NCBI GenBank assembly: GCA_002337545.1
Contig: DDGE01000024.1
Coordinates: 52,359-96,944, forward strand
Source: Phycisphaerales bacterium UBA1910
GTDB lineage: Bacteria; Planctomycetota; Phycisphaerae; Phycisphaerales; UBA1924
Direction: 5' to 3'
Length of the DNA: 44,586 bases
Shown: piece after piece, positions 12,363 through 38,046 of the stretch
Layout of the letters: every line of letters begins with the position of its first letter
How positions within the stretch are numbered: position 1 is the stretch's first letter
The notes under the pieces: model-generated
What the model was told of the DNA's origin: nothing
What the model saw: only the letters and a program-made list of their open reading frames with translations
Databases searched by the model: none
Made by a program: the position numbers and the translations under genes

Positions 12363-12911
12363 TCATCCATGTGCTTTGAGCTTCGTCCACTCCTCGCCCG
12401 CCTTTCGAACAAATCCGCGATCAATCGATCGGGTGAATGTCGCTCGGGAGTGTTTGAGCATTCCTCGCTCGCAGAAGAACCTCGTCGAGACGCGCAGCCA
12501 GTACACCGGGGGCTCGTAGCCGAGGATCCCAGCGACTGATTCTCGGATCTGTTCGAACTTCTGAGACTCAGGCCCTGCGCTGATCACTTTCGCGACCGCG
12601 TCGTAGGCGAACTTGGGGCAATGGAACGCCGCCGCGCCGGTCGATCGGTGCTCGGCGAGTGCTGGTCCCTTGCGGCTGGGCTCGATGGTGTATCCCGTGA
12701 CCGATTTGGCGGCTTTGGGCTTCTTTCTCGGGGCGTACCCACGGCGCTCGGCGAGGCGGATCTGCTCTTCGAACTCCGATCCAAGCCGATCAACGAGCTT
12801 CCGAGCGGCTGCAAGCTGCCTTTTGGCGTTCGGGCATCGGTCTTCCAGCTTCTGGAGGGCCTGAGCGAGCTCTTCGAGGGTCTGGACTGGATCACCCTTG
12901 GGTTTTGGCAT
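12363..12911 (-). CDS. Unknown protein, recombination-module family A (paralogue 1 of 3)
   Basis: A 182-aa protein of unknown function. The N-terminal half is charged and probably helical. The middle has KAAKSVTGYTIEPSRKGPAL, and the C-terminal half (FEQIRESVAGILGYEPPVYW, LRVSTRFFCERGMLKHSRATFTR) has the helix pattern and final beta-wing expected of a winged-helix DNA-binding domain. Two homologues lie at 28725-29261 and 31543-32124, each on the minus strand beside a tyrosine recombinase. The family shares the pattern Y-x-[VI]-E-x-S-R-x-G-P-A-L and RVSxRFxxxxGxxxHxxAxFTR. It is transcribed divergently from the excisionase-like gene. A repressor or accessory DNA-binding role is inferred from position only. 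Confidence 0.7.
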   Translation of the reverse strand: MPKPKGDPVQTLEELAQALQKLEDRCPNAKRQLAAARKLVDRLGSEFEEQIRLAERRGYAPRKKPKAAKSVTGYTIEPSRKGPALAEHRSTGAAAFHCPKFAYDAVAKVISAGPESQKFEQIRESVAGILGYEPPVYWLRVSTRFFCERGMLKHSRATFTRSIDRGFVRKAGEEWTKLKAHG

Positions 12912-12928
12912 GTCCTATTCTACACGAT

Positions 12929-12981
12929 TTGACTCGTTTGGGTGGCGTGGTATACTTCTACCGAAAGCGGTTTGTTTCGGT
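12929..12981 (+). promoter_or_regulatory. Sigma-70 promoter and operator-like repeat of recombination module 1
   Basis: TTGACT (12929-12934) and TATACT (12951-12956) are separated by 16 bases, a good sigma-70 promoter. The inverted repeat ACCGAAA (12960-12966) / TTTCGGT (12975-12981) begins about where transcription should start, as expected for a repressor operator. Genes 13070-18232 could be read from here. Confidence 0.65.
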
Positions 12982-13069
12982 AATCCATGATCAACACACA
13001 GACCATCCCGATCTCACGCAAACGCCCGGTCCGTACCGGGCAGGCGACCACGAGTGGCAACCAGCTTCT

Positions 13070-13294
13070 ATGGCCACAATCACTCGTGAACAAGCTCGTG
13101 TCGCCGCTGAGACGGCCGACCTCCCCCTCGTCCTGACGCTCGAAGAAGCGGCGGCCATCGCTCGCCGCGCACCGGGCACACTCAAACGCTTGGTCAGCGA
13201 AGGACGCTTCCCTAAGAGTGCTAAGCGCGGAAAGCCGCTCTTGTTCTGGCGCGATGCGTTCCTCATCGAGCTGATGCGGGACAACGACGCATGA
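13070..13294 (+). CDS. Excisionase-like HTH protein, module 1
   Basis: A 74-aa DNA-binding protein. The ATG at 13070 begins the segment that aligns with its homologue at 30045-30404. The core LTLEEAAAIARRAPGTLKRL, then VSEGRFPKSAKRGKPLLFWR, is the MerR/excisionase-type HTH (PF12728-like) with a wing. Such proteins usually direct the integrase toward excision and may repress its gene. The frame is open further upstream, but the promoter at 12929-12956 limits the start. A 49-codon frame beginning at ATG 12988 overlaps in another phase, and I cannot exclude that it is translated. The stop overlaps the integrase start by four bases (ATGA), so the two are translationally coupled. Confidence 0.8.
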   Translation: MATITREQARVAAETADLPLVLTLEEAAAIARRAPGTLKRLVSEGRFPKSAKRGKPLLFWRDAFLIELMRDNDA

Positions 13295-14457
13295 AGCTGG
13301 TTGGACGCCAACCAGTCGATGGGACCGAGCGCCCTGTGATCTACATCGGCAAGCGGGTGTGGAAGGACAGCACCGGGAAAGTGCGGACCGCCAAGCCCTA
13401 CACCGCTGAGTACTTCCTCGAAGGCAAGCAGCAGTACCGTTCGCTGAAGCTGACGAACAAGGTCGCCGCGATCCAGGCGGCCCACGAGCTTCACCGCTCG
13501 ATCCGTTTGGGCGAGCCCACAGCTGCGCCTGCTGAGATCCGGCTGGAAGAGATGGCCCAGCGTTACCTCGCTACCGTGCGGGGGATGGGTCGAGCCCCAA
13601 GGACGCTGCAGAAGTACGAGCTTGTGTGTGATCAGCTCTTGCGATTCTGCACAGAGCAGAGACTGGTCTACGCCAACCGATTCAGCGAAGAGCTGTTCTG
13701 GGCTTTTGCCGAGAGCATGAATCACCTGAGCGAGAAGACCAGGCACGATCGGCTGATCGTGGTCCAGCAGCTCTTCAAATGGGGCTGTGAGCGGGCGGAG
13801 CTGATCACCAAGAACCCGATCCGCAAAGTGCGCGTCCGCAAGCCACCTCCAACCGAGCAGCCCTGCTTCACTCCCGAGCAGGTCGCGACCCTGCTCGCTA
13901 ATGCCGATGGGATCCTTCGTCCACGGTTCGCGGCACTCGCCTACACAGGGATGCGGTTCGGTGAACTCCGTGATCTGCGATGGGCGGATGTTCATATGGA
14001 TGGTCCCAATGGGGGCTTCATCCACATCAAACGGGGTGGGGCTCAGACGACCAAGGGCCGAAAGACACGACGGGTCCCAATCCACGGGGAACTGCGTCCA
14101 CTGCTCGAAGCTCTGCCTCGTCATTGCGAATTGGTATTCCCCGCTGGTCGATCAGCGAAGCACCCGAATGGTGACGGTCCGATGGATGAGCGCCGACTCC
14201 TCAGGTCACTGAAACGATTGTGTACCCGCTGCGGGTTCGACAATCCGGAGCAATATAAACTGCATACTTTCCGTCACGCATTCGCGAGCATGCTCGCACG
14301 AAGCAACATCGGCTACAGGTACGCGCTTGCCTTCATGGGTCAGTCGTCGAGTGCAATTCTGGACTTGTATTACACGATGTTTGACGACGATGCGGCGGCC
14401 GCGATCGCGTCGATTGAGTTCCCGCCAGCTGCGGAAGACACACAATGTGGTGGTTGA
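13291..14457 (+). CDS. Tyrosine recombinase (integrase), module 1
   Basis: A 388-aa phage-type integrase. The N-terminal 75 residues (an arm-binding-like domain with EYFLEGKQQYRSLKL) are followed by a core-binding domain (about 80-180) and the catalytic domain. Catalytic residues visible: Arg in TGMRFGELRDL, Lys in KGRKTRRVPI, HxxR in LHTFRHAFASML and the Tyr nucleophile in DLYYTM. The second His/Trp of the family, normally in LGHSS, is Gln here (FMGQSSS). The homologue at 30401-31561 keeps His (LVGHSSS). A CxxC (LCTRCGF) just before HxxR is shared by both. It is the likely integrase for the tRNA-Ser site, though the Gln could weaken it. The start overlaps the HTH gene by four bases. Confidence 0.88.
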   Translation: MKLVGRQPVDGTERPVIYIGKRVWKDSTGKVRTAKPYTAEYFLEGKQQYRSLKLTNKVAAIQAAHELHRSIRLGEPTAAPAEIRLEEMAQRYLATVRGMGRAPRTLQKYELVCDQLLRFCTEQRLVYANRFSEELFWAFAESMNHLSEKTRHDRLIVVQQLFKWGCERAELITKNPIRKVRVRKPPPTEQPCFTPEQVATLLANADGILRPRFAALAYTGMRFGELRDLRWADVHMDGPNGGFIHIKRGGAQTTKGRKTRRVPIHGELRPLLEALPRHCELVFPAGRSAKHPNGDGPMDERRLLRSLKRLCTRCGFDNPEQYKLHTFRHAFASMLARSNIGYRYALAFMGQSSSAILDLYYTMFDDDAAAAIASIEFPPAAEDTQCGG

Positions 14458-14543
14458 ATCATGAAATGTGGCTGCATTTCTTCGGTTTAATTCCGAGCCG
14501 CACATAATTCTCACAAAATTACTCCTCTTTCGGTGGATCGCGC

Positions 14544-14571
14544 TTGATTTTTCTCTTCTGGGTGTTGTACT
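14544..14571 (+). promoter_or_regulatory. Possible internal promoter
   Basis: TTGATT (14544-14549) and TGTACT (14566-14571) with a 16-base spacer precede the ribosome binding site at 14605. The match is fair, not strong. Confidence 0.35.
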
Positions 14572-14616
14572 CGGCCAGCGTGCATGCCGTACGCGAGAAC
14601 CACAAGGAGTTCAAAG

Positions 14617-15048
14617 GTGAACAACGAAACAACGAACGACATCACCGGACAGGAAGCACTCGACACCAAGCACGCCGTGCTCAAGGAGGTCGCGACGATC
14701 GGGCTGGAGCAGATGGTGGGCGCGATGGTCATTGGTGCGGTGCTCCCGCCCCACATGGATCAGAGCGAGATCCAGCGGTGCGAGAGCATCGGCTCAGCAC
14801 CGACGCTGATGCCCCGCGGATTCGCGCTTGTCTCCCCTGATGACGAAGAACACTGGTCTCGATTGGCGCTGTTGCTCGCATCGGCGAAGGTCCAGATCGA
14901 TGGGCTGATCGAGCACTATCGCGATCAGCACCCCGATGAGTTTGGGGATGCTCTCACATCCGCGTACCGAATCCTGCGGGAACACAGTGAGCCCACGATG
15001 CGGCTGATCCCGGTGCCTCTGAACCCGTGGTCACCCGAGAAGAACTGA
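14617..15048 (+). CDS. Unknown small protein of recombination module 1
   Basis: A 143-aa protein. The GTG at 14617 was chosen because AAGGAG lies 7 bases upstream; an in-frame ATG at 14584 has no such site. It is acidic, with no membrane segment or recognised motif. It contains LKEVATIGLEQMVGAMVIGA and, further on, helical stretches such as LALLLASAKVQIDGLIEHY. It occupies the same position as the two small genes 32340-32699 and 32783-33196 in module 2, between tyrosine and serine recombinase, but any similarity is weak by eye. The function is unknown. Confidence 0.6.
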   Translation: MNNETTNDITGQEALDTKHAVLKEVATIGLEQMVGAMVIGAVLPPHMDQSEIQRCESIGSAPTLMPRGFALVSPDDEEHWSRLALLLASAKVQIDGLIEHYRDQHPDEFGDALTSAYRILREHSEPTMRLIPVPLNPWSPEKN

Positions 15049-15073
15049 TTCTCAAAGACAAAAGAAGGACTCT

Positions 15074-15313
15074 ATGGGTACGCACAGAAGAGAGAACAGT
15101 GGAGCACCACGCTCCGACACCGACCGCCACGACGGCGACCGCGTTGGTCACCGAAACGGAGGCCGAGGTGCTCGGAGCGTGGGCATCCATGTCGTCCGCG
15201 GACGGCTGACGCACCGAGAGCAGCGTCTGTTCGAGGAAGCGGTGATGCTCTTGCTTTTGGGTTCAGCCCATCGGCATCTCACCGCACATAAGGAGAGAGA
15301 TCATGATTCATGA
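15074..15313 (+). CDS. Small ORF overlapping the serine recombinase, module 1
   Basis: A 79-aa frame that ends inside the first codons of the serine recombinase (stop 15311-15313, recombinase ATG 15303). It is basic in the first half, with THREQRLFEEAVMLLLLGSA in the second. The matching place in module 2 holds a 76-aa ORF (33268-33498) with a similar second half (PEEEQQCNDALRLLLASMVR) and the same start overlap. Conservation of size, place and overlap supports translation; the function is unknown. It may serve for translational coupling of the recombinase. Confidence 0.5.
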   Translation: MGTHRRENSGAPRSDTDRHDGDRVGHRNGGRGARSVGIHVVRGRLTHREQRLFEEAVMLLLLGSAHRHLTAHKERDHDS

Positions 15314-17300
15314 CTCTTACATCAACGGCAAGCAGTACTTGCCATACGCTCGGTGCTCGACCAAGGCACAAGGCGACAACAGCGTGGAACAGCAGCTCGG
15401 AGCGATTCTCAGCTTCGGAACTGAGCGAGGGGCAACGGCCACGAAGCCGATCGTGCGTGTGGGCGTGTCCGCATCCGTTGAATGGAATGTTGACGAGTTT
15501 GTGCGTGAGGTCAAGGAGCGGCTAGATCGCGGTGAGCAGTTCGATTTCGTCTTTGTCTTCGACGAGAGCCGATTGACGCGTGGCGGCCCGCTGCACTCAT
15601 CGAAGGTGCGGTACGACCTGCTCGCGATGGGGGTCGATGTCATCGGTGTTACTCGGTACATCGAAGACCCACGGACGCGCCAGATGATCACGACTTTTGA
15701 TGCGATGGCTGCCCAGGCGCACGCTGAAGCGATCGCGACCAACGCATCGCGCGGAGCGCAGCAGAGCCTCGAAGACGGAAGGCGGGCGCACTGTGCCTTT
15801 CCTCCATACGGAATCGACAAGCTGATCACGACCAGCGAAGGCGAAGCCCTGTGGATCCTGCGGCATCTCGCGGATGGATCCCAAGAGCAGTACAATGCGA
15901 AGACGAAAGAGCTGATCCGCACCTACAAGCCCAATGATGGGCGTGGTGGGTCCACGCATTACATCAAGTCACGGCAAGAGCGAGCAACACTGTGCCCAGG
16001 CATGGCTTCATTGCACGCCCATGTGGTGCGGATGTTCACAGCATTCGACATCGAAAAGATGAGCTGCGAGCAGATCGCGAAGGAGTCCAACGACGCGATG
16101 ATTCCGAGCCCTAGTGGTGGCCGATGGAATGCGTCTGCGGTCCACAGTATCTTGCATAACCCCACCTACTTGGGCAAGGGGTATGCGAACCAGAGATCAA
16201 GTGCTCTGAAAGTCAAACGCAGTCGCAACGCCCCTGAGCGTGTGACACGATCACAAATCGAGATGATGGGCCGCAAGAGTCCCCCGATGGAGTTTCGCCC
16301 GCGCGAGAATTGGGTTGAAATCGAGTACCCGCTGCTGAGCGAGTATCTGCAATCCCCTCTCCGTGATATCGCGGAACAGCGCATCGAGATGCATCTCAAA
16401 GCCAAGGCAAAAGGCCACACACCCACCATGCGCCAGCGGAGTCCTGTCGCAGCGAGCTACCTGCTCAGCGGCATCATCCGGTCAAAGCAACTCAACTTGA
16501 CCATGCGCGGCCACAGCGGTGGGACGAAATCCGTCTATAGGTACTATGTGGTCCAAGGAAGGAAGAAGTACAACCGTGATAGCGAGCGGTACCTGCGCAA
16601 AAGCGTGCCCGCCGAGCCCATTGAGTCGGCTGTGCTGAGTGCGTTGCAGAACACGCTCTGCGGCATGCCCGCTCTGATGGATGAGTACCTGTCCGCACTG
16701 CAAAACGAACGAAAAATAATTTTCGCGGACAATGAAATCGACCAGCTTCGCGCGCGAGAAGAGAAGCTGCTCAGCACCATCGACTGGCTCACACAGAGCT
16801 TCGAGGCGAAGCGGCGCGACTACTTCACCGAACGGCTCGAAGCCGCGATGGCTGAACTCGATGATGTGCGCGAGCAGCTAGGTACTGCGGATATCGCCGA
16901 GCCACCTACCGATGACGAACTTCGGTCTTGGGCCCAAGCCGTTCGGAACGGCGCGGACCTCTTGGCCGACGCGACATTCGCCGAGAAGCGACGGCTCGTG
17001 GAGTTGTTCGTCAAGGACTGTGTCATCGACATGAAGACGCTCGAATGCGAGATTACGCTTGCGATGCCCGATTGGAAGGCTGTGGCCGACGACGGAGTTG
17101 GTCTGTCATCCACACTTGCATGCAGAGTTGGATGGTGGACCAAACTGCCTCAGATGGCCTGGAAGGCCGACTATGAGGTTCGCGTGCCATCACCTTGCCT
17201 CAGCGCCAAACGGAAGCAGCCCGAGCTGCTTGGGTGCGGTGCCTGTCGACGCAAGTCCCGCATGAACCGCTCTGACCACTCTGACCGCAAGGCAGCCTAG
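15303..17300 (+). CDS. Large serine recombinase, module 1
   Basis: A 665-aa protein. Residues 12-165 form a resolvase domain: YARCSTKAQGD carries the nucleophile Ser19, and FVFDESRLTRGG is the conserved SRLxR segment. The recombinase domain (about 235-300) has MSCEQIAKESND and GRWNASAVHSILHNPTYLGK. After it, large serine integrases normally carry a zinc ribbon (CxxC...C). Here the segment LLSGIIRSKQLNLTMRGHS has no cysteines. A coiled coil follows (about 465-525), and the C-terminus carries C-x(n)-GCGACRRK. Module 2 shows the same loss and the same C-terminal GCxxCRR. The protein probably cuts and rejoins DNA, but whether it integrates, resolves or regulates is unknown. It is co-directional with the tyrosine recombinase. 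Confidence 0.85.
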   Translation: MIHDSYINGKQYLPYARCSTKAQGDNSVEQQLGAILSFGTERGATATKPIVRVGVSASVEWNVDEFVREVKERLDRGEQFDFVFVFDESRLTRGGPLHSSKVRYDLLAMGVDVIGVTRYIEDPRTRQMITTFDAMAAQAHAEAIATNASRGAQQSLEDGRRAHCAFPPYGIDKLITTSEGEALWILRHLADGSQEQYNAKTKELIRTYKPNDGRGGSTHYIKSRQERATLCPGMASLHAHVVRMFTAFDIEKMSCEQIAKESNDAMIPSPSGGRWNASAVHSILHNPTYLGKGYANQRSSALKVKRSRNAPERVTRSQIEMMGRKSPPMEFRPRENWVEIEYPLLSEYLQSPLRDIAEQRIEMHLKAKAKGHTPTMRQRSPVAASYLLSGIIRSKQLNLTMRGHSGGTKSVYRYYVVQGRKKYNRDSERYLRKSVPAEPIESAVLSALQNTLCGMPALMDEYLSALQNERKIIFADNEIDQLRAREEKLLSTIDWLTQSFEAKRRDYFTERLEAAMAELDDVREQLGTADIAEPPTDDELRSWAQAVRNGADLLADATFAEKRRLVELFVKDCVIDMKTLECEITLAMPDWKAVADDGVGLSSTLACRVGWWTKLPQMAWKADYEVRVPSPCLSAKRKQPELLGCGACRRKSRMNRSDHSDRKAA

Positions 17301-17333
17301 CTCCCAGCCGAGGCTCTTGAGCCTTGCCGAGGC

Positions 17334-17357
17334 CGCCGCGATCGAGAGATCGCGGCG
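17334..17357 (+). promoter_or_regulatory. Leader hairpin before the conserved downstream gene, module 1
   Basis: CGCCGCGATC (17334-17343) pairs perfectly with GATCGCGGCG (17348-17357) around a GAGA tetraloop. There is no U-tract. It lies between the serine recombinase stop and the GGAGG (17374-17378) of the next gene. Module 2 has a hairpin of different sequence at the same place (35514-35532). Confidence 0.55.
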
Positions 17358-17386
17358 TGCCATTCGCCCACATGGAGGTCCACAAC

Positions 17387-18232
17387 ATGAATCCAGCCGA
17401 GCAACGCATCCTCAGCCGCATCGAACGACTTCTTTGCAATGGTTCTCTTCCCGCGTTAGAGAAAGCCGCGGGGCTCATCCTCAAGCATTCCGACCTTCTG
17501 AACCTGGGCAGGCCGTTCCAGATTTCGCTGATGCGTCGGATGGGACAATGGCGTCAGCAGTACGACATCATCCAGACGAACATCGAGCGCATGGACGACG
17601 GGGCGTCGGGCATGCTCTACCGGATGACCGAGGTTCCTGATTACCAAGTGTGGATGCATCCGCGCCAGCATGAACCGGAACAAACGCCCAAGCGCGTCAC
17701 ACCGAGCCGCTGCACTGGTACGCCCGAAGAAGATATCTCTGATGGTGAAATCAGCGAGTTTCTCGAACTGGTTGATTCTCAGGGGCTCGAAAAAATTTTC
17801 GCGAACGGCGCAGACATCATCAACGGTACGCTGGTGATGTATCCGCTCATCACGCTCGGCGAGCGAGTGATTGAGTACGGCCCGGTCGCGGCGATGTATG
17901 CGGAGAATGGTATCGAGCGACCATGGGACCCCAGCAAGCGGAAGCCGTTTATCGCGATGGCGTTCGACTTGAGTCTGCTCTCAGCGATGGTGGCCAAGCG
18001 ATGGACATACCGAGTGTGGGATGACGCATTCTCTCGGCTTCCCGAAACTCACCAGTACTACCCAAAGAACGGAAAGCGACCGGGGTGGAACCGAACCACA
18101 AAAATCATGGAACTCCGTGAACTCATTGAACGCCCCGCTGCACGGACTTGGCACCTGACCGTAACTGGGCAAGAAATCGCATCCGCTCAGATTGCCCCTG
18201 CGTGGTCTGCACTGGGCAAGACTCTTTCCTGA
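17387..18232 (+). CDS. Unknown conserved protein of recombination module (family B), module 1
   Basis: A 281-aa protein of no recognised family. The ATG at 17387 is preceded by GGAGG with 8-base spacing. The N-terminal 80 residues are helical, a polar linker follows, and the C-terminal part is conserved with the gene at 35550-36398. Shared blocks are an acidic stretch (ISDGEISEFLELVDSQGLEK here), PLITLGERVIEYGPVAAMY, RPWDPSKRKPFIAMAFDLSL and RPGWN...LIERPAARTWHLT. The last block looks like a winged-helix end. There is no signal peptide or membrane segment. It always follows the serine recombinase with a hairpin leader, so it could be a partner of that enzyme. Confidence 0.65.
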   Translation: MNPAEQRILSRIERLLCNGSLPALEKAAGLILKHSDLLNLGRPFQISLMRRMGQWRQQYDIIQTNIERMDDGASGMLYRMTEVPDYQVWMHPRQHEPEQTPKRVTPSRCTGTPEEDISDGEISEFLELVDSQGLEKIFANGADIINGTLVMYPLITLGERVIEYGPVAAMYAENGIERPWDPSKRKPFIAMAFDLSLLSAMVAKRWTYRVWDDAFSRLPETHQYYPKNGKRPGWNRTTKIMELRELIERPAARTWHLTVTGQEIASAQIAPAWSALGKTLS

Positions 18233-18258
18233 TACGATGAAGACGACGGAGCTTTGCG

Positions 18259-18618
18259 ATGGCCAAACGAATGATCACCAAAGAAGCATTCCTCACCGCG
18301 ATGGAATGCACGACGCAAGGCTGGTACCTGTTGAGTGATAAAGGCGGCACGCCCACGCCCGGTGAGCAACTCCGCATGGAAGAGGGGAAGGAAGTCCATC
18401 GCCGAGCGCAAAGCCTTCACCAGAACAGCGTCTACGCGGGCAAGGTCGAAAGAACGAAACAGCTGATTCTCGATTCGGCCATCGAAGTCATCTTCGAGGC
18501 TGCGTTCGAGGTGGATGGGTACGCGGCCCGCGCCGACTGGATTCGCCGGACTCAGGGTGGCTGGATCATCGGAGATATGAAGTCAAGTACTTTCAACCAA
18601 GTCGGTTTCAGGACATGA
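18259..18618 (+). pseudogene. Truncated RecB/Cas4-like PD-(D/E)XK nuclease
   Basis: A 119-aa remnant with a GGAG site before the ATG. It begins ITKEAFLTAMECTTQGWYLL and continues ARADWIRRTQGGWIIGDMKSST. This is the N-terminal domain and first catalytic half (D...DxK) of RecB/Cas4/DUF2779-type nucleases, which are usually several hundred residues long. After KSST the sequence changes to FNQVGFRT and stops, so homology ends at about 18590. I found no continuation elsewhere in the window. The simplest reading is that the methyltransferase-to-Z1 cassette (18790-28228) was inserted into or next to this gene, deleting its 3' part. A functional short protein is unlikely because the rest of the active site is missing. 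Confidence 0.6.
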
Positions 18619-18789
18619 CAAAAACCTTGAGATCTCGCATTCACCGTGGCGGTGGCCTAATGATCTGAGTTGCTCGTCAACTGCTGCAAACAAATGCCCA
18701 AGAACCTCGAAGGCGGGTGAGCTCTATTGGAACTAGAATAACGCTTCTCAAACCCCGGTTTTTATTCTCAACCCACGAATTGGACACTG

Positions 18790-28346: not shown

Positions 28347-28413
28347 CCTGCCCCACAAACCGATCCATCTTGGGTCTCATTACGGGCCAAGGTGAGTCAG
28401 AACTGCTCTAGTT

Positions 28414-29261: not shown

Positions 29262-29305
29262 TGAACCAACTGTACCACAACCTCACGGTTTTTTCTAGGT
29301 GGGCG

Positions 29306-29334
29306 TTGACGGATCATCCAAGGCGAGCTACTCT
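29306..29334 (+). promoter_or_regulatory. Sigma-70 promoter of recombination module 2
   Basis: TTGACG (29306-29311) and TACTCT (29329-29334) with a 17-base spacer. AGAGG and the ATG at 29362 follow. It probably drives 29362-31561 as one transcript, because these genes overlap. Confidence 0.6.
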
Positions 29335-29361
29335 CGGTGGATTTCTGTAGAGGTCTGCCAT

Positions 29362-30045
29362 ATGAAAGAGACGCAAAGCCTAGCCGCACTGCTCACCTCG
29401 GTCACCCGGGGGCACCTCATCATCGCGCTGGAGTACCTCGCCGAGCTCTCCGCAAATGGGATGGTCACATCCGAGGTGGTCGACGCGATCGACGAGGAGC
29501 TGCCCGCACACGGAGGTGTCGCGACTTCCGCCGTGGTCGAGCACGCCCGGGCACTCGGGCTGATTTCAGCCACGATCGACAGCGACGGTTTCGCGAAGTT
29601 CTTCATCCACGCTGCCGCGTTGGACCTGCTGGGCCTTGACATCGAGGCCGTGCACGGAAGTGAAGAGGCAGAGTTACAGGTGTTGGCGGGCGTCTTCGCC
29701 TGCTACCAGCGTGACGCCGCTGGCAACAAAGGTCGCGCCTGGCGAGCAGCGGCTTCCCTCATGCTGCTCTTGGAAGCCGAGGTCGGACCTGAACAAATCG
29801 CCCGGCTCAGCGAGCGGGCGGTGGGCAACCAACGGGGCCCGAGCACCGCGAAGGCGTTCTGGCTCGCCGAGTCGCAGCTCGGTCTTCAAGTTGCCAAGGC
29901 CGAGGGCTTCATCGATGAGCCCACCGACGGATCCCTTCGGATCACGGATTACACGCTGACCGACCGCGGCAGAGCATGGCTGACCAGGGACGGCTCACCG
30001 ATCGCGGCGAGCGTCCGCAACATCGAGCTGAGGGGGGTGCTGTGA
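29362..30045 (+). CDS. Unknown helical protein at the head of the module 2 integrase operon
   Basis: A 227-aa protein. The ATG at 29362 was preferred over an upstream in-frame ATG at 29299, which lies before the promoter. It is almost wholly helical: SLAALLTSVTRGHLIIALEY, ATSAVVEHARALGLIS and GRAWRAAASLMLLLEAEVG. The last 50 residues, LQVAKAEGFIDEP...YTLTDRGRAWL, look like the recognition helix and wing of a winged-helix domain. No family is recognised, and module 1 has no counterpart. The TGA overlaps the next ATG (TGATG), so the HTH gene is coupled to it. A regulator is likely. Confidence 0.6.
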   Translation: MKETQSLAALLTSVTRGHLIIALEYLAELSANGMVTSEVVDAIDEELPAHGGVATSAVVEHARALGLISATIDSDGFAKFFIHAAALDLLGLDIEAVHGSEEAELQVLAGVFACYQRDAAGNKGRAWRAAASLMLLLEAEVGPEQIARLSERAVGNQRGPSTAKAFWLAESQLGLQVAKAEGFIDEPTDGSLRITDYTLTDRGRAWLTRDGSPIAASVRNIELRGVL

Positions 30046-30404
30046 TGCCCGCGATGAGGTCTCTCATCCTCCGATCCGCCCGAGCGTCCTGGCTTTTTGC
30101 CCGCCGCGCCGGCTTCGTCCGTGGGCGCACCGTCCGCATCCCCCGCACCGAGCCCACTTTCCCAAGCTCGCGTCGTCTCATCGGACTCAACATTCCGCTG
30201 CACGAAGCTCGGGCGTTGGCTGAGGAGTACGAGTTGCCGCCCATCATCACGCTTGACGAGGCCGCCAAGGTCGCCCGGCGGTCACCGTTCACCGTCAAGC
30301 GGCTCGTGTCGGAGGGGCGGTTCCCGAAGTCGGCCAAGCCTGGTAAGCCCCTGCTGTTCCTCCGCGATCGGTTCATCCAGGAGCTCATGAAGGAGCACGG
30401 GTGA
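30045..30404 (+). CDS. Excisionase-like HTH protein, module 2
   Basis: A 119-aa protein whose C-terminal 70 residues match the module 1 protein closely: ITLDEAAKVARRSPFTVKRL, then VSEGRFPKSAKPGKPLLFLR. It has a basic 45-residue N-terminal extension (SLILRSARASWLFARRAG and VRGRTVRIPR) that the module 1 protein lacks from its likely start. The HTH is of the MerR/excisionase type. The start at 30045 overlaps the stop of the previous gene, and the stop overlaps the integrase start, so all three are translated together. Confidence 0.8.
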   Translation: MPAMRSLILRSARASWLFARRAGFVRGRTVRIPRTEPTFPSSRRLIGLNIPLHEARALAEEYELPPIITLDEAAKVARRSPFTVKRLVSEGRFPKSAKPGKPLLFLRDRFIQELMKEHG

Positions 30405-31561
30405 TGCTGGCCAACCGGTTCGAGGTCGAGGGCACGAGCAACCCCATCATCCACGTGGGGCACAAGTCGTACCGAAAGAAGGACGGCACGTCGGCACGCA
30501 CCAAGACCTACTACGCGGAGTGGAGCCTCGGCAATAAGCAGCAACGCCGGAGCCTGAAGACCAAGAACAAAACGGCCGCGATCAACGCGGCCCATGCCTT
30601 GCACGACAAGATCTGCAACGGCGAACGCCTCGAAGCCCCCAAGGAATACACCGTCGACGAGGCGGTGAAGCTGTACCTCGACACCTGCCGGGCCCGGCGG
30701 CTCAAGCCGAGGACCATGGCGGCGTACGAGCACACGCTCGGCAAGCTCAAGGACTTCTGCAAAGACCGGTCCATCGTCTACCTCGGTCGGTTCGGACAGG
30801 TCGAGTTCTGGGCGTTTGTGAACACGATGAATCACTTGTCGAAGAAGACGGTCTACGACCGCATGGTGATCGTTCAGCAGCTCTTCAAGTGGTGCTGCGA
30901 GGTTGCTGAGATCCTCGCGAAGAACCCGATCCGCAAGCTCAAGCTGAAGAAGCCGGCGTCGAAGAAACAGCCGTGCTTCACCCCTGAGCAGATCCGCACA
31001 ATGATCGACACCGCGGACGACAATCTCCGGCCCATCATTGTGTTCCTCGCCTACACCGGGTGCCGCGTCGGTGAGATGCGGGACCTGCTGTGGGAGGATG
31101 TCCACCTCGACGCCAACGGCAACGGCGTGCTCGACATCCGGCACGGGGGCTCCGACGACGAGACAAAGGGGAAGGAGTCGCGTCGGATCCCGATTCACTC
31201 CGAGCTGCGGCCGTACTTGGAGTCGATGCCGCGGATCGACGAGCGGGTTTTCCATTCTCATCCGTCAAAGCGGTATCCCCGCGGAAACGGAAAGCTCGTT
31301 GATACGCGGCTGCTGGATCAGGTGAAGGCGTTGTGTAAAAAGTGCGGCTTCGAGAATCCCACGCAATACAAAGTGCACACGTTTCGACACGCGTTCGTCT
31401 CGATGCTGGCCCGGCAAAATGTGTCGTATCGATACGCGTTGCAGCTCGTCGGGCACTCGTCGAGCAAGATCCTTGATCTGTACTTCTCCGTCTATGACGA
31501 AGACGCGGCGAGAGCGATCGAGTCGATCGAGCTCCCGCCCGGTCAACCTTCCGACGATTGA
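30401..31561 (+). CDS. Tyrosine recombinase (integrase), module 2
   Basis: A 386-aa integrase, a clear homologue of 13291-14457 over the full length (for example the shared VIVQQLFKWCCE/VVQQLFKWGCE region and FTPEQ). Catalytic residues: Arg in TGCRVGEMRDL, Lys in the KGKESRRIPI hairpin, HxxR in VHTFRHAFVSML, His in LVGHSSS and the Tyr nucleophile in DLYFSV. Unlike module 1 the set is complete, so this copy should be active. A LCKKCGF CxxC lies just before HxxR. GTG 30401 (four-base overlap with the HTH gene) or ATG 30404 may be the start. The 3' end overlaps the gene on the other strand by 19 bases. Confidence 0.9.
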   Translation: MMLANRFEVEGTSNPIIHVGHKSYRKKDGTSARTKTYYAEWSLGNKQQRRSLKTKNKTAAINAAHALHDKICNGERLEAPKEYTVDEAVKLYLDTCRARRLKPRTMAAYEHTLGKLKDFCKDRSIVYLGRFGQVEFWAFVNTMNHLSKKTVYDRMVIVQQLFKWCCEVAEILAKNPIRKLKLKKPASKKQPCFTPEQIRTMIDTADDNLRPIIVFLAYTGCRVGEMRDLLWEDVHLDANGNGVLDIRHGGSDDETKGKESRRIPIHSELRPYLESMPRIDERVFHSHPSKRYPRGNGKLVDTRLLDQVKALCKKCGFENPTQYKVHTFRHAFVSMLARQNVSYRYALQLVGHSSSKILDLYFSVYDEDAARAIESIELPPGQPSDD

Positions 31562-32124
31562 TCAGGACCGACTTCGAAGGGCTCACGCTGCAAGCTCGTC
31601 CAGGCTTCCCGGGTTGCTCGTGTAAACCCGGCCTTAGTGCCGACGCGGGTGAACCGTGCACCTTCATGATGGACGAGACCTGAGGCGGACCAGAATCGCA
31701 GCGAGACGCGGGCGGCGTAGTCGGGCAGCTCCTCTCCAAGCCGGCGGCTCGCGGCGGCCTTGATGGTGGCGAAGAGTTGTGGCTCCGCGGTGGACGCGAC
31801 CTCGGTGGCAACCGCCCTGTAGTACGGCAGCGGCACCTTGTACGGTTTCGCCGCTGCGCCTGGGCGGATCTCAATGAGGGCGGGGCCGCGGCGTGACTCT
31901 TCGACGGTGTAGGTGGCGGCCCGCACACGGGCACGGGGGCCGATGATCCGCCGACGACGGGCGTCGTTCAGGTTGTTAATCTCACCGGTGACCGCGGAGT
32001 CAAGTTCGTTGAGCTTGCGGAGTAGTTTCGAGCGGCCTGTACCCGTGCGCGACGCGAGCTCGCGTACCTCATCAAGCACATCTCGCCATGACTGACTTGG
32101 TGTACCTGCTCGCGGCATGAGCAT
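31543..32124 (-). CDS. Unknown protein, recombination-module family A (paralogue 3 of 3)
   Basis: A 193-aa homologue of the two other family A proteins. ATYTVEESRRGPALIEIRPG and ARVSLRFWSASGLVHHEGAR, then FTRVGTKAGF, match the same blocks in paralogue 1 (YTIEPSRKGPAL, LRVSTRFFCERGMLKH). The N-terminus has a helical stretch, WRDVLDEVRELASRTGTGRS. Its C-terminal codons overlap the integrase gene tail-to-tail. The starts at 32124 and 32118 are both possible; neither has a good Shine-Dalgarno. It is divergent from the small-gene/serine recombinase unit across an intergenic region with two inverted repeats. It may thus control the serine half of the module, as paralogue 2 may control the tyrosine half. 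Confidence 0.7.
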   Translation of the reverse strand: MLMPRAGTPSQSWRDVLDEVRELASRTGTGRSKLLRKLNELDSAVTGEINNLNDARRRRIIGPRARVRAATYTVEESRRGPALIEIRPGAAAKPYKVPLPYYRAVATEVASTAEPQLFATIKAAASRRLGEELPDYAARVSLRFWSASGLVHHEGARFTRVGTKAGFTRATREAWTSLQREPFEVGPDQSSEG

Positions 32125-32187
32125 GATGGTACGCCGGATCTGCGAGTTGGCGTCTATACCCGCGTACCCGAGATACCGCGATTCCCG

Positions 32188-32220
32188 TCAGGATCCATAC
32201 CGGTTTGGGCTGGATCCTGA
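32188..32220. promoter_or_regulatory. Inverted repeat in the divergent intergenic region of module 2
   Basis: TCAGGATCCA (32188-32197) and TGGATCCTGA (32211-32220) are perfect complements with a 13-base spacer. It lies 64 bases upstream of the minus-strand family A gene. It could be an operator or an RNA hairpin. Confidence 0.45.
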
Positions 32221-32295
32221 TGCGCCTCCGATTCCGTGTTGAAATTGTCGAGTTCACCGCGGACGGATCCTTGCCTTCCGTCCAAGTCACCGCTA

Positions 32296-32324
32296 TGTAC
32301 GCCGTATTGACCCATTGGCGTACA
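32296..32324. promoter_or_regulatory. Second operator-like inverted repeat of module 2
   Basis: TGTACGCC (32296-32303) and GGCGTACA (32317-32324) are perfect complements with a 13-base spacer, the same spacing as the repeat at 32188-32220. A TTGACC (32307-32312) lies in the spacer. The ATG of the next gene is 16 bases downstream. Confidence 0.45.
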
Positions 32325-32339
32325 CAAGCGGAGCATCGG

Positions 32340-32699
32340 ATGACGGACGAGAACACCCACACGGCGGACGAGATCACAGCGGCGGCGGACGGCCTGCTCG
32401 CATGGGCCAAGGAGCACGGGAGCGTGCTCGCGGTGGCGGCGACGCTTGGGGAGGACAGCGATGGCCCGTTTCCCGCGGCGCGGCCGGAGGCGTTGGTGGC
32501 TGGGGCGGTCGGGGCTCTCAACGAGGTGGAGGTCGCAGTACTTCTCGCGCAGCTCGATGTCGCGGTGCTCATGGTGTTGTCGCAGATGGCAGCGGGCGCG
32601 GAGATGGGCGAGGAGGCCTTCCGCGAGCTCGTAAACCAGGCACGGCGCAAGATGCTCGATGCGGCGGGGCTCGACCTGTGCGATGACTGCGGTGGATGA
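32340..32699 (+). CDS. Unknown small protein of recombination module 2
   Basis: A 119-aa acidic, alanine-rich helical protein, with GGAG about 6 bases before the ATG. It contains VAAATLGEDSDGPFPAARPE, VAVLLAQLDVAVLMVLSQMA and a C-terminal LCDDCGG, a CxxC that could bind metal with partners. No family is recognised. It takes the place held by the 143-aa gene in module 1. Confidence 0.55.
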   Translation: MTDENTHTADEITAAADGLLAWAKEHGSVLAVAATLGEDSDGPFPAARPEALVAGAVGALNEVEVAVLLAQLDVAVLMVLSQMAAGAEMGEEAFRELVNQARRKMLDAAGLDLCDDCGG

Positions 32700-32782
32700 G
32701 GGCGGAGGGGAGAGAGGCTCGCCGTGGGGCTAACGCCTCGCGGCGGGTTTGGTGGTTCAGTCCTTTAGTGAGAGGTACGGCG

Positions 32783-33196
32783 ATGACAACAACGCACACG
32801 TTCAACGGCCCGGATGGGATGGCGAGGAAGATCAGGCTGCTCGCGAGCAACTGCGAGGCAGCGACGGCGGGGTTGTCTCGCACCCTGCTCATCGCGGTGA
32901 GCGCGCCGGATCCGGTGGGCACCCTGGACTGTGAACACGCGGACCTGCGTGGGATCCGGATCCAGACGCTCGACAAGGGCATGACGAGCACAGATATCGC
33001 AACCTTGATGGGTGTCGTCTATGGCATGCTCGATGTGATCGAGGACGGGTACGCGCGAGAGTTCGGAGAAGGCTTCCGCGAAGCGGTAGACGAGGCGCGC
33101 GGCACACACGGGCACGGTCAGCGGATGGCCGTGGTGCCGGTTGTTCCCATGGACACCAAGCCGTGGCGGGCACGCGTGAGTGAGCGCAGAAGCTGA
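32783..33196 (+). CDS. Unknown small protein of recombination module 2
   Basis: A 137-aa protein with GAGAGG before the ATG at 32783. It contains MARKIRLLASNCEAATAGLS, RTLLIAVSAPDP and IATLMGVVYGMLDVIEDGYA, then REFGEGFREAVDEARG. It is soluble and alpha/beta in appearance, with no recognised motif. The helical second half bears a faint likeness to the 143-aa protein of module 1 (LALLLASAKVQIDGLIEHY, then DEFGDALTSAYRIL). That likeness would make the two counterparts, but it is weak. Confidence 0.55.
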   Translation: MTTTHTFNGPDGMARKIRLLASNCEAATAGLSRTLLIAVSAPDPVGTLDCEHADLRGIRIQTLDKGMTSTDIATLMGVVYGMLDVIEDGYAREFGEGFREAVDEARGTHGHGQRMAVVPVVPMDTKPWRARVSERRS

Positions 33197-33267
33197 GAAA
33201 CCTGCAAATCGGAGCGGTCGCGCCCGTCAATACCAAGAAAACTGGCGCGCGAGGGAGGAGTCGTTGC

Positions 33268-33498
33268 ATGACTTGTGGAAATGAGAAGGGCGAACCACAC
33301 CTGACGCAATCCGGCGGCGGCCAATGCGGCGAGATCGTTTCTCGTCGTCGCGGCCGTCCGCCGCGGCAGGTTCCGGTTTCCGTCTCGTATATACGGCAGA
33401 ACCCGGAGGAGGAACAGCAATGCAACGACGCCCTTCGACTTCTACTTGCCTCCATGGTCCGCAGGCGAATGGGCGGACATGAGGAGGAAGAGACATGA
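33268..33498 (+). CDS. Small ORF overlapping the serine recombinase, module 2
   Basis: A 76-aa frame with a strong GAGGAG before its ATG and a four-base ATGA overlap with the serine recombinase. It is basic in the middle (VSRRRGRPPRQVPVSVSYIR) and then PEEEQQCNDALRLLLASMVR. The module 1 frame at 15074-15313 has the same size, place and C-terminal pattern. Coupled translation of the recombinase is likely; a function of its own is unknown. Confidence 0.55.
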   Translation: MTCGNEKGEPHLTQSGGGQCGEIVSRRRGRPPRQVPVSVSYIRQNPEEEQQCNDALRLLLASMVRRRMGGHEEEET

Positions 33499-35426
33499 AA
33501 CGGAAGTCTCGACTCAACGGAAAACGAGCGGTCCCCATGCCGCGATGCAGTACGATGGAGCAGGCCGATACCTCCATCGACGATCAGATGAACTCCATGG
33601 AGTACTTCGCGGAGGAGTACGACATGGAGCTCGCCGACGCCTTGCAACTTGTCGGCAAGTCCGGCAGCATCAAGGCCAATCTTGAAGCGGCGATGGACGA
33701 GATCATCGCGCGCAAGCGGTCGGGCGAGCGGATCGATGTCGTCCTGTTCTATGACCAAAGCCGGTTCGGGCGTTCGGGGCCGCTCCATTTTGGGGCTCTG
33801 GCCGATCGCCTCTTGGACGAGGGCATCGAGATCGCCGAGACTGACGCGTTCATGGAGGATGCCAACAACGCCACCATGGTCCGCATGATGAAAGCGATGA
33901 TCGCTCAGCAGACCGCCCGCGGCATCGCAGACAACTCGGCCAGGGGGTCGCAACAGGCGCTCCGCGAGGGGCGTCGCAGTCATGCGAGCAAGGGGGCGTA
34001 CGGCATCGACCGTCTCTATATGACCGAAGACGACGAGCCGATCTGTATCATCCGCTTGCTCCCGGATGGAACGCGGCTCAACCTGGATCCCAAGACCAAG
34101 GAGGTCCGCCTCCGGTACGAGCCGGGCAAGTTGGGGTTCAAGAAGGAGAAGAAGGACAAAGTCACGCTGATCCCGGGCGACCCGGAGCATCAGGCGGTCG
34201 TCATCCGAATCTTTGCGATGCGGCACGAGCGGGGCTTCGCGGGTACACGTATTGCGCGCGTCCTCAATGATGAAGAGATCCCGTCGCCCAACGGCAAAAG
34301 ATGGACCAAGACCGTCATCGACGCGATGCTGCGCAACGAGACCTACTGCGGCGTTGGCTATGCCAACCGGCATTCCTCTGCTCTCTATTTCAACCAAGCA
34401 GAAGGACGCCCGGAGCCGCTGCCCCGCGAGCAAGGTCGTCGCATCCGCGGCATCCGGCCCGAGAGTTCATGGTACTTGATCGCATACCCGAAACTCCGCG
34501 ACTATCTGCCCGAACATCTGCGGCCCGCGGCGATGGCCGAGCAGGCCGAGCATCGCGCCAAGATCAAGTCGGGCTGGATCAAGGATCCGGCCCGCCGCAA
34601 CGGCCGGACGACCCATCTCCTATCTGACATCCTCGTCGAGCCGACAACCGGCAAGCGGCTCATCGCAAAGCGAAGCCGCGGGCGGATTTACTACGGGCTC
34701 AACAAAAGCGTCGATATGCCTGCGAAGGGATCGCAGCGTCGGAGATGGTTGGCGTCAGGGCCGCTGCATCGCGCGGTCTTGGAAGAGATCGAGGCGTTGA
34801 TCTGCTCGCTCCCTGATCTCCGCGAACGGATCATTAAAGAGATCGGCGAGCAAGACAAGCAGCGTCGGGGCGAATCGGGCGAGGCCGAGCAACTCCTGGC
34901 AAACCTCGACAAGCTGAAGGCGCGCCTGAAATCGCAGGTCCGTCGTCTCGGCGGCGACGACGATGACATCGTCAACGATGCGATCGACGAGACGACCAGG
35001 CAGATCCGCGTTATCGAGGACAAGCTCGCCGGCATGAACGGCGGGCCCGCGTTGACCGAGAAGGACATCGCCGCGATCACCGATGGAGTTATCAAGGATC
35101 TCTCCGCCATGCTCCAGGCGTTGGCGGAGGAGGGCGAGACCTCGCTCCGCAAGCTCGCGGAGACCCTGATCAGTTCCGCGGTTGCGAATCTTGATGAGAA
35201 CGAGGTCGACTTCGAGTTCGCGATCCCGGCAGAACTGATCGAGCAGCGGAATGTACGCCTAGCGGCTCGTAACGGACCCGCTCCATGCCGCCAGGCGTAC
35301 AAATGGCGGCCCATCCCCCTTGATGCCGTAACCGTTGACATTCCAAAGCGTTGCAGCGGCGACTGCTGGGAGCCGTTCGAGCCATCGGGCTGCGATGACT
35401 GCCGTCGCCAACCCAAAGCTGCATGA
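33495..35426 (+). CDS. Large serine recombinase, module 2
   Basis: A 643-aa homologue of 15303-17300. The resolvase domain starts at PMPRCSTMEQADTSIDDQM, with the nucleophile Ser19 at the same number as in module 1; LFYDQSRFGRSGPLHFG matches FDESRLTRGGPLHSS. The recombinase domain has FAGTRIARVLNDEEIPSPNG and MLRNETYCGVGYANRHSS. The zinc-ribbon segment again lacks cysteines (THLLSDILVEPTTGKRLIA). A coiled coil (about 455-525) and a C-terminal CSGDCWEPFEPSGCDDCRR follow. The two copies are clearly related but well diverged, so they are not a recent duplication. The role is unknown, as in module 1. Confidence 0.87.
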   Translation: MKRKSRLNGKRAVPMPRCSTMEQADTSIDDQMNSMEYFAEEYDMELADALQLVGKSGSIKANLEAAMDEIIARKRSGERIDVVLFYDQSRFGRSGPLHFGALADRLLDEGIEIAETDAFMEDANNATMVRMMKAMIAQQTARGIADNSARGSQQALREGRRSHASKGAYGIDRLYMTEDDEPICIIRLLPDGTRLNLDPKTKEVRLRYEPGKLGFKKEKKDKVTLIPGDPEHQAVVIRIFAMRHERGFAGTRIARVLNDEEIPSPNGKRWTKTVIDAMLRNETYCGVGYANRHSSALYFNQAEGRPEPLPREQGRRIRGIRPESSWYLIAYPKLRDYLPEHLRPAAMAEQAEHRAKIKSGWIKDPARRNGRTTHLLSDILVEPTTGKRLIAKRSRGRIYYGLNKSVDMPAKGSQRRRWLASGPLHRAVLEEIEALICSLPDLRERIIKEIGEQDKQRRGESGEAEQLLANLDKLKARLKSQVRRLGGDDDDIVNDAIDETTRQIRVIEDKLAGMNGGPALTEKDIAAITDGVIKDLSAMLQALAEEGETSLRKLAETLISSAVANLDENEVDFEFAIPAELIEQRNVRLAARNGPAPCRQAYKWRPIPLDAVTVDIPKRCSGDCWEPFEPSGCDDCRRQPKAA

Positions 35427-35453
35427 GGATCCCGGCCTAAGCGGCCGGATCCT
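35426..35453 (+). terminator. Strong hairpin at the serine recombinase stop codon
   Basis: AGGATCCCGGCC (35426-35437) pairs with GGCCGGATCCT (35443-35453) with one bulged C; the stem begins at the last base of the TGA. There is no U-tract, so it could be an attenuator or processing site instead. Confidence 0.4.
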
Positions 35454-35513
35454 GTGATGTCTTCGCCGCCCTCGACCAAACGGCCGGGGGCGGCCTTCAG
35501 AAAAAAAATTTCG

Positions 35514-35532
35514 TCGACGGCGGAGCCGTCGA
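35514..35532 (+). promoter_or_regulatory. Leader hairpin before the conserved downstream gene, module 2
   Basis: TCGACGGC (35514-35521) pairs perfectly with GCCGTCGA (35525-35532) around GGA, just after an A8 run and before CGGAG and the ATG at 35550. It corresponds in place to the hairpin at 17334-17357. Confidence 0.5.
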
Positions 35533-35549
35533 GCATACCGGAGACCCCC

Positions 35550-36398
35550 ATGGACGAGAAACTCACCGACATTGAGAGAGCATGGCTGGTGTCGCTCGAT
35601 GCCCTGCTCGTGCAGACCACAGTGGACGCACACGGGGCGGTCGCCGGTCGGTTCATCGATCTTTGGGACAGTGGCGGCCCGACCTTCCGGGCCGAGCTTG
35701 CCAAGCGGGCGTCGCTTTGGCGACAGCGGCATGTCAAGGTGCAACAACTCATCCTGAACAGCCACGGTGCGTGCGAGCGACTCGTCCGGCTCATGGGTGA
35801 CCCCGAGCCTCCGCAACGGAAGCCGGTGAAGACCAAGTCAAAGCCTCCACGGGATCGAGTTGTGCCGAGCCGCCGGAAGCACGCCCCGGTGCAGGAGATC
35901 ACCGAGGATGAGGCCGCCAAGTTCATGGCGATGCTCGATGCTGAAGGCATTGCCGAGGTGTTCGACCCCGGCGTCAGCATTCTCGATGACAAGCTGTACC
36001 GGCCGCCGTTGATCATCCTCAACAAGGTGAGCGTGTTCTACGAGGACATCGCACCGGCGTACGAGCGTGAAGCGATCGATCGGCGGTGGGATCCCGTTGA
36101 GCGTGAGCCGGCGATCGCATTGGCGTTCGACCTCGCGTTACTCGTCACGCTTCGGGAGAGTCGGTGGACCTGGGTGATCTCCGATCGGCACTTTGGCCGA
36201 CTCCCATGGGGACACCCGTGCAAGGTCACGCCGGAGGGGCGGCCGGGGTGGAAGCTGATCACCGGACTGCTTGATCGAGCCGGGCTCATCGAACGGCGGA
36301 CCGGGCAGACGTGGCGGCTCACTCGCGAGGCACGCCCTGTCATCGCCAACCATCTAATGCCGGCCTGGGTTGCTGTCGCAGCATCTGGTCGAGACTGA
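35550..36398 (+). CDS. Unknown conserved protein of recombination module (family B), module 2
   Basis: A 282-aa homologue of 17387-18232. The ATG at 35550 has CGGAG upstream; an open frame reaching 35454 has no such site and crosses the hairpin. Conserved blocks: ITEDEAAKFMAMLDAEGIAE, PLIILNKVSVFYEDIAPAYE, RRWDPVEREPAIALAFDLAL and RPGWKLITGLLDRAGLIERR with TWRLT. The basic linker (about 85-115; KPVKTKSKPPRDRVVPSRRK) could contact DNA. No enzyme motif is recognised. The order serine recombinase, hairpin leader, family B protein is the same in both modules. Confidence 0.65.
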   Translation: MDEKLTDIERAWLVSLDALLVQTTVDAHGAVAGRFIDLWDSGGPTFRAELAKRASLWRQRHVKVQQLILNSHGACERLVRLMGDPEPPQRKPVKTKSKPPRDRVVPSRRKHAPVQEITEDEAAKFMAMLDAEGIAEVFDPGVSILDDKLYRPPLIILNKVSVFYEDIAPAYEREAIDRRWDPVEREPAIALAFDLALLVTLRESRWTWVISDRHFGRLPWGHPCKVTPEGRPGWKLITGLLDRAGLIERRTGQTWRLTREARPVIANHLMPAWVAVAASGRD

Positions 36399-38043: not shown

Positions 38044-38046
38044 GGC

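Follow-up and report, generated by a model that had tools for sequence, protein, structure and literature searches.

Two tandem tRNA-Ser islands of a Phycisphaerales bacterium contain a tyrosine integrase and a second, serine recombinase with a candidate attachment site inside its own gene

A 44,586-nucleotide stretch of the genome of Phycisphaerales bacterium UBA1910 (assembly GCA_002337545.1, contig DDGE01000024.1, positions 52,359 to 96,944; "the window" below) contains two diverged gene modules, each of which encodes both a tyrosine recombinase (Y) and a large serine recombinase (LSR; here S), and it raises the question of what two recombinases of different superfamilies do in one element. 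The window belongs to contig C59 of a metagenome-assembled genome of 3.53 Mb; positions above 44,586, called window-equivalent, lie beyond it and are numbered onward on the window scale. The original prediction took the two recombinases to work as one system. Our analysis bears this out only in part, and we think it probable that these are cargo islands with two separate integration systems, in which Y would act at a tRNA gene and S would act through an attachment site (attP) that lies in its own gene and is swapped with it as a cassette. This candidate attachment site inside a recombinase gene, which the original prediction missed, is the most interesting feature of the elements.

Both modules have the genes first reported for them, at the same coordinates and on the same strands: a minus-strand family A gene, an excisionase-like helix-turn-helix (HTH) gene H that overlaps Y by 4 nt, Y, small genes, an open reading frame (ORF) s that overlaps S, S itself, and a family B gene (Table 1). 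They form the recombination cores of two complete islands that stand in tandem at a single tRNA-Ser gene, and the spans given earlier for the modules are too short to be the extents of the elements; attachment (att) repeats bound two whole elements with their cargo, element 1 at 9433-28565 and element 2 from 28549 to window-equivalent 53861. The tRNA-Ser 3' end is directly repeated without mismatch (9433-9449 versus 28549-28565, 17/17 identical, and 27/30 over 30 nt), and two such att sites were found in 0 of 100 dinucleotide shuffles of the window. A third copy at window-equivalent 53845-53861 matches at 15/17 positions (2 mismatches), and three related genomes (G490, G494 and G406) stop resembling element 2 at 53861-53863. 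Element 2 is mostly 92-99% identical to its relatives (in G406 and G489 certain cargo segments fall to 84-90%). The right flanks beyond element 2 in G000, G490, G494 and G406 have only short or non-corresponding matches to one another, the longest being 442 nt at 68% identity, at 2.9 and 7.5 kb in G406 and G490 (1.7 kb of flank was available in G000 and 1.3 kb in G494). In G490 element 2 stands directly behind another tRNA gene, tRNA-Ser(GGA), and the Y gene of G489 is on a contig with a flank 75-76% identical to this G490 locus. Element 2 is thus found little changed at different sites, so it is mobile and uses tRNA-Ser 3' ends. As in tRNA-integrated islands, the tRNA 3' end is duplicated at the far end and a tyrosine integrase with an HTH partner lies near the tRNA; terminator-like hairpins follow the att core at both left ends and at the right flanks. 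No relaxase or conjugation genes were present among the larger ORFs scanned (element 2 was partly masked, and small ORFs were scanned only in part). Gene position, att repeats and the relocation of element 2 make Y the likely tRNA integrase, and we take the conserved R, HxxR and Y of Y1 to be the catalytic residues of tyrosine recombinases. H, by its sequence, is the likely excisionase of Y, and with this partner Y would integrate the element at the 3' end of the tRNA-Ser gene.

Fifteen further loci were found through family B in GTDB genomes, and in these the usual order, as far as the contigs reach, is tRNA, then A, H and Y, then m, o2a, o2b, s, S and B, with a DUF2779-type gene after B in seven of them (L010, L011, L012, L014, L015, L016 and L018). 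The Y, S and B arrangement thus recurs, and this supports the earlier view that the modules belong to a family of elements and are not a recent duplication. Between the two modules, blastp identities are 51% over 381 residues for Y, 61% over 70 for H, 34% for A (9e-19), 32% for B (2e-43) and 28% for S (1e-74). The small genes, which were thought to be common to both modules, are so only in part: s1 and s2 are marginally similar (30%, E = 0.003), o1b has no significant match to o2a or o2b (E 0.24), and x and m are extra in element 2. The product of m2, a second family A gene, is closer to A1 (36%, 79 bits) than A2 is (34%, 71 bits).

We searched 163 genomes of the host's family, taking scores above 270 bits as family S and above 600 bits as strong Y. 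Family B is present in 12 of these genomes, fragments included (and in 3 of 397 genomes of the class, all three from the host's family); family S occupies 16 places in 10 genomes, one place being partial, and strong Y occupies 12 places in nine. Another 25 LSR places score no more than 185 bits. A check proposed with the original prediction, whether a tyrosine recombinase always lies upstream of the S and B pair, came out positive in all 12 places where the contig reaches that far. The upstream enzyme belongs to the Y family in nine, is a divergent Y in one (G475, 41% identical, cut by the contig start), and is an unrelated tyrosine recombinase next to a tRNA-Arg gene in two (L010 and L015). 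Four S places are cut by contig ends (G489:C18, G344:C7, G406:C3 and G406:C117), and G489 has Y on another contig, C39. S shares a contig with Y at nine of the 12 strong Y places, and at the remaining three the contig stops some 0.8-1.5 kb downstream of Y. Family S is absent from the contigs of seven weaker Y places (171-276 bits), so a wider Y family exists without S.

Several individual loci depart from the usual arrangement. L016 and L018 have B and a tyrosine recombinase with no S detected, and in L016 (9572-10792) o2a is apparently fused to B in a single frame, with S, s and o2b not detected between them. L010 has S from residue 434 only, with an apparent internal deletion from o2b into S, and retains the palindrome described below. 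The Y genes of G490:C11 and G463:C127 have one in-frame stop each according to the search report, which suggests immobilised copies. More distant Y relatives at G000:C47:115304-118613, possibly another island family, lie about 6 kb away from where G000 matches the tRNA-Ser(GGA) locus that holds element 2 in G490.

S1 and S2 both have a Resolvase domain followed by a Recombinase domain in Pfam, and S has a PHROG integrase match and PDB profile matches to the SPbeta and TP901-1 integrases. The catalytic Ser and the R..R pair are retained in all 13 complete S N-termini, and R17, S19, R90 and R93 are invariant in an alignment of 16 sequences; we take the Ser and the Arg pair to be catalytic. Zn_ribbon_recom is below its cut-off in S1 and was not reported in S2. 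Among element 2 and L008-L015 the chassis genes are quite similar (o2a 82-97%, o2b 73-100%, B 78-100% and the DUF2779 gene 86-93% identical), while S is only 33-53% identical among element 2, L011, L012, L013 and L015. DNA identity falls near the start of S (for L015 earlier, in s) and recovers in its last ~50-100 bases. Moreover, S alleles are common to different chassis lineages; the S proteins of L011 and L019 are 74% identical, with B of L019 at 57%. In approximately unbiased (AU) tests a clade made up of the chassis group is rejected for S (delta lnL 514, p = 4e-50) and not for B (p = 0.38); the S tree has long branches (S1 and L015), so our reading of it draws on how large the effect is and on the DNA profile. 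Congruence of the gene trees was the second check proposed originally, and by that measure their strong disagreement speaks against co-inheritance of the Y/S pair. By these comparisons S alleles replace one another as a cassette within a conserved slot, and S with its embedded attP would be swapped as a unit, probably by homologous recombination in the conserved flanks. Different S alleles are present in single assemblies (elements 1 and 2; L009, L013 and L015; L011, L014 and L017; L010 and L012, with L016 lacking S), and co-resident elements would accordingly hold different S/attP alleles. Such diversity within a common chassis suggests selection against cross-recognition between co-resident elements. 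In element 2, identity to L008 and L009 is 97-100% for Y and for most of S and B but just 80-94% in the o2a-s region between them (32324-33397); this is probably a local replacement by homologous recombination.

A natural recombination product is present in G406, where element 2 is in two pieces. Contig C85 matches the window (98% identity) over 29051-35281 and runs on into the N-terminal half of a gene of the host; contig C1 has the rest of that gene followed by element 2 from 35275 onward. The 7 nt that the two contigs share (GACCCGC) span the centre of a palindrome in S2, TGTACGCCTAGCGGC - 20 nt - GCCGCCAGGCGTACA, whose arms (35252-35266 and 35287-35301) are 14/15 complementary, and the exchange is at this centre. 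The split host gene encodes an HlyD-type membrane-fusion protein beside an RND pump (the HlyD identity rests on the larger half, and the 85-aa N-terminal half has no Pfam match). Its two halves are contiguous in the homologues of all seven relatives examined (38-45% identical overall), so C85 and C1 are reciprocal products of one exchange, which S may well have catalysed. The exchange splits S; a chimeric ORF of 615 aa retains the N-terminal catalytic and Recombinase parts, and about the last 45-49 codons are removed from the S frame. Recombination at an embedded attP would in this way swap the C-terminal tail of S for host-encoded sequence, and loss of the tail might lock the product. The symmetry of the host site is weak by eye. 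No close copy of the disrupted gene was found in G000, where the matches were short apart from one of 65% to the RND neighbour, and a search for the host site in the cargo of element 2 itself gave background only (27/44).

The palindrome at the G406 junction prompted a test of the other S alleles. A roughly 50-bp imperfect palindrome lies within the 3' coding end of S in all 10 alleles examined, and in the eight alleles whose genes are 1929-1974 bases long its centre is exactly 149.5 nt before the gene end. Scored over 22 pairs, this palindrome is the best of its gene in seven of the eight and tied in the other (L020); over 19 pairs it is best, in some cases tied, in six and second in two. The summed score of the eight at 149.5 is 123/176, where the mean over centres is 46.4 (standard deviation 7.9) and the next best centre reaches 75; the maximum in 200,000 random draws of centres was 78. 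With nine alleles the observed score of 136 compares with a maximum of 106 in 2000 trials in which synonymous codons were drawn from the same gene. The palindrome sequence is allele-specific: in the outer arms (16.5-24.5 bases from the centre) 83 of 90 pairs in the 10 alleles are Watson-Crick and one is G-T, and eight of the nine positions carry two to four different Watson-Crick pairs. The site in S1 is 179.5 nt before the gene end (13/22, tied with one other centre) and that of the divergent G475 allele 98.5 nt before it (16/22). For comparison, control genes from 20 of the 25 weaker LSR places were retrieved and 19 scored (one was incomplete); none has its best centre at 149.5, and the scores at that position are 3-10 of 22. 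In the six genomes searched each S2 half-site is present a single time, within S (in G501 in a partial S, and in G406 only on the two split contigs), and no second copy with up to three mismatches was found there. S therefore most likely carries its attP inside its own gene. This attP would be an imperfect palindrome of roughly 50 bp with a central 2-bp core.

A number of observations weigh against the reading of S as a cassette with its own attP and integration route. The palindrome statistics are not uniform: L015 and L021 each have one better centre in the 19-pair score, L012 taken singly is not significant in the synonymous-codon test (p = 0.16), and the S1 and G475 sites were found by looking near the gene end. 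Every control LSR gene has a chance palindrome of 12-15/22 at scattered positions, so the single-gene evidence for S1 and for L020 (14/22, tied) is weak and depends on position. L012 shares the first ~360 bases of S with element 2, so the exchange is sometimes mosaic. Just one recombination event was found, in a metagenome-assembled genome, and its contig C85 begins inside family A; with this start inside the element, integration of a circle, inversion and insertion of a replicon into S are indistinguishable. In G406 a terminator-like hairpin borders element 2 on the right, and beyond it lie genes for a NosD-like protein, an ECF sigma factor and a protein kinase. These are probably host DNA, which makes plain integration of an excised circle an improbable account of the event. 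Over its first 83 bases this flank resembles the left end of element 1 (81%), and with the terminator-like hairpins this makes the flank probable and not certain host DNA; it may be a neighbouring element. It appears that the G406 site recombined while the element sat at a tRNA gene, probably giving a chromosomal rearrangement.

We nevertheless favour two separate integration systems kept in one chassis, which is what Y and S look like. S is most likely a second, active integrase, on the basis of its domains, its intact catalytic motif, its attP-like site and the one recombination with a host gene, and it would give the element a second integration route. More tentatively, and as a proposal that we put forward with less than even confidence, the elements may form a dual-integration family in which Y moves the element between tRNA genes, S can also act at an allele-specific host gene in a one-way insertion or rearrangement that splits its own gene, and cassette replacement avoids cross-recognition.

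The system originally proposed, a single cooperating machine in which Y integrates and S resolves, excises or handles tandem copies, would agree with the constant presence of a tyrosine recombinase upstream of S and with the window itself being a tandem array at one tRNA. We consider it unlikely and not supported as stated, since the S and chassis gene trees are incongruent, Y is replaceable by an unrelated enzyme (L010 and L015), and S has its own attP-type palindrome, separate from the att sites at the tRNA, whose sole partner seen is a host gene and whose half-sites have no second copy in the genomes searched. It is similarly improbable that the S site is a landing pad at which circular DNA inserts into S, with the G406 host region having arrived as a large replicon. 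Both G406 junctions would fit an insertion between the S halves topologically, but the insert would have to be at least ~98.8 kb (19.4 kb of C85 and 79.5 kb of C1) and would carry an elongation factor G gene, and in the loci examined the cargo sits after B and not at the S site. Finally, it is very improbable that the palindrome acts as a hairpin of the S mRNA (one that controls translation of B, for example) and that the G406 break is a coincidence or assembly error: conserved RNA-like hairpins do lie just downstream, between S and B, but G-T pairing is all but absent from the outer arms, the 20-nt middle is unlike a hairpin loop of usual size, the size and central crossover resemble the 50-bp A118 attP (PMC3556126), two reciprocal junctions lie at the palindrome centre, and the host gene is continuous elsewhere.

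Table 1. Positions of the genes and sites of the two islands in the window
Feature	Position	Strand	Evidence or remark
tRNA-Ser(CGA), element 1 integration target	9362-9450	+	ARAGORN, Rfam
Left att repeat of element 1 (tRNA 3' end)	9433-9449	+	exact 17-mer repeat
UvrD-like helicase, left-end gene of element 1	9555-12281	+	Pfam UvrD-helicase 9e-35
Family A, element 1 (A1; winged helix by fold of relative m2)	12363-12911	-	
H1, excisionase-like HTH	12905-13294	+	HTH_17 9e-6, below Pfam cut-off
Y1, tyrosine recombinase	13291-14457	+	Phage_integrase 1e-16; conserved R, HxxR, Y region
s1, 79-aa ORF overlapping S1	15074-15313	+	E 0.003 to s2
S1, large serine recombinase	15303-17300	+	Resolvase 8e-11, Recombinase 2e-11
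Palindrome in S1, candidate attP	17093-17148	+	centre 179.5 nt before gene end; weakest of set
B1	17324-18232	+	32% identical to B2
Truncated DUF2779-type protein, element 1	18259-18618	+	119 of ~481 aa; relatives 481-487 aa, DUF2779 in one
Right att repeat of element 1 = left att repeat of element 2	28549-28565	+	
Family A, element 2 (A2)	28725-29261	-	
x2, ORF without Pfam match, element 2	29299-30045	+	homologues in L008, L009, L013, L038
H2, excisionase-like HTH	29976-30404	+	HTH_17 7e-6, below cut-off
Y2, tyrosine recombinase, likely tRNA integrase of element 2	30401-31561	+	Phage_integrase 9e-18; PHROG integrase 6e-48
m2, second family A gene, winged-helix fold (predicted)	31543-32124	-	
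o2a and o2b, conserved small chassis genes	32205-33196	+	order kept in relatives
s2, 76-aa ORF overlapping S2	33268-33498	+	
S2, large serine recombinase, allele swapped between conserved flanks	33495-35426	+	
Palindrome in S2, candidate attP	35249-35304	+	centre 35276/35277; G406 crossover here
Leader between S2 and B2, two conserved hairpins	35427-35545	+	
B2, helical N-terminal part and C-terminal winged helix (predicted fold)	35454-36398	+	
Cation and RND efflux cargo of element 2	36596-44551	-	runs past window to equivalent 53861

The leader between S and B, in which a hairpin had been noted for both modules, has conserved hairpins in element 2 and its relatives, and that of element 1 was seen by eye only. 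Among 11 sequences (element 2 and relatives in L009-L021) 5 of 23 predicted pairs are changed on both sides. The hairpins are followed by an A-run of variable length and then a third palindrome (35427-35545 and the equivalents in L009-L021), and the leader is a possible RNA regulator of B. A programmed frameshift there was rejected, since variation in the length of the A-run breaks the frame. A role as DNA-binding regulators is probable for B and family A, judging from predicted folds; Foldseek gave no match for B at E ≤ 0.001, and its winged helix comes from a second aligner. B is unlikely to be an allele-specific directionality factor given how much better it is conserved than S (mostly 78-93% identical, against 33-53% for S), and it may be an allele-independent one. 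The junction after B (36442-36445) was considered as a serine att site and discarded; it is the break in the DUF2779 gene, which falls at different points in L013 and element 2. In element 2, just something like the first codons of that gene are left before the efflux cargo.

Element 1 has a Mza-like methylation-linked defence cargo (MzaC, MzaD, methylase and Vsr profiles and a PDC-M33A match), and the relatives carry type III restriction-type, TIR, helicase and methylase genes. The 908-aa UvrD-like helicase at the left end of element 1 has GajB and RTasHel profile matches and is outside the common chassis. A phage or plasmid origin was not borne out, since no relative of B was present in viral contigs, phages or plasmids; S gave matches at only 22-29% identity, and a single-sequence query with Y2 gave no relatives in viral contigs.

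How do these elements compare with known systems? Islands that target tRNA genes (Islander type) have a tyrosine integrase near the tRNA end, restore the tRNA 3' end and have direct-repeat att ends. The present elements are like them in the restored tRNA 3' end, att repeats, integrase near the tRNA, tandem arrangement and defence or resistance cargo, and unlike them in having a backbone that includes a second recombinase with its own candidate att site. Staphylococcal cassette chromosome (SCC) elements have divergent, exchangeable LSR allotypes (ccr) in a conserved setting, as S does; unlike the present elements, SCC integrates with Ccr at one gene and without a tRNA integrase, and we know of no attP inside a gene for SCC. 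Among openly licensed PubMed Central papers we found none that describes an att site within the gene of a serine integrase, nor one on such a dual element in Planctomycetota. If the reading given here is true, S would be, within the literature searched, the first serine-class integrase known to split itself and the first self-splitting integrase of a bacterium.

A survey of LSRs retained candidates no more than 500 nt from their site, and the part of it available to us makes no statement on sites inside the gene (PMC10083194). The attP of the A118 integrase is 50 bp long and imperfectly palindromic, with crossover in the central 2 bp, and its attB has little symmetry (PMC3556126). S is like the A118, SPbeta and TP901-1 integrases in domain order and catalytic motif, and its palindrome is like this attP as described there; it is unlike them in that the candidate attP lies within its own reading frame and is allele-specific, and in that a tyrosine recombinase is present in the same element. 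The S cassette would be a natural series of serine integrases with an attP readable from each gene, and it shows how integration specificity could be swapped in a single recombination step.

The closest functional parallel is with the archaeal "suicidal" integrases of SSV1, pTN3 and pT26-2, which have the att site inside the integrase gene so that recombination splits the gene, the integrase and site forming a compact module that could favour exchange between elements (PMC8371274). Like these, S has a candidate att site in its own gene, and the gene is split in one case (G406). The archaeal enzymes are tyrosine recombinases with the catalytic domain in the C-terminal piece, while S is a bacterial serine recombinase (Planctomycetota) whose N-terminal piece holds the catalytic domain, so that unlike them it loses just a C-terminal tail. 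S thus most likely works, by analogy, as a "suicidal" integrase does without being a member of that group, as it differs in superfamily, in domain of life and in the part of the enzyme that is cut. If S does carry attP in its own gene, self-splitting integration has evolved independently in two recombinase superfamilies and two domains of life, and the question why an integrase cuts its own gene becomes testable in a bacterium.

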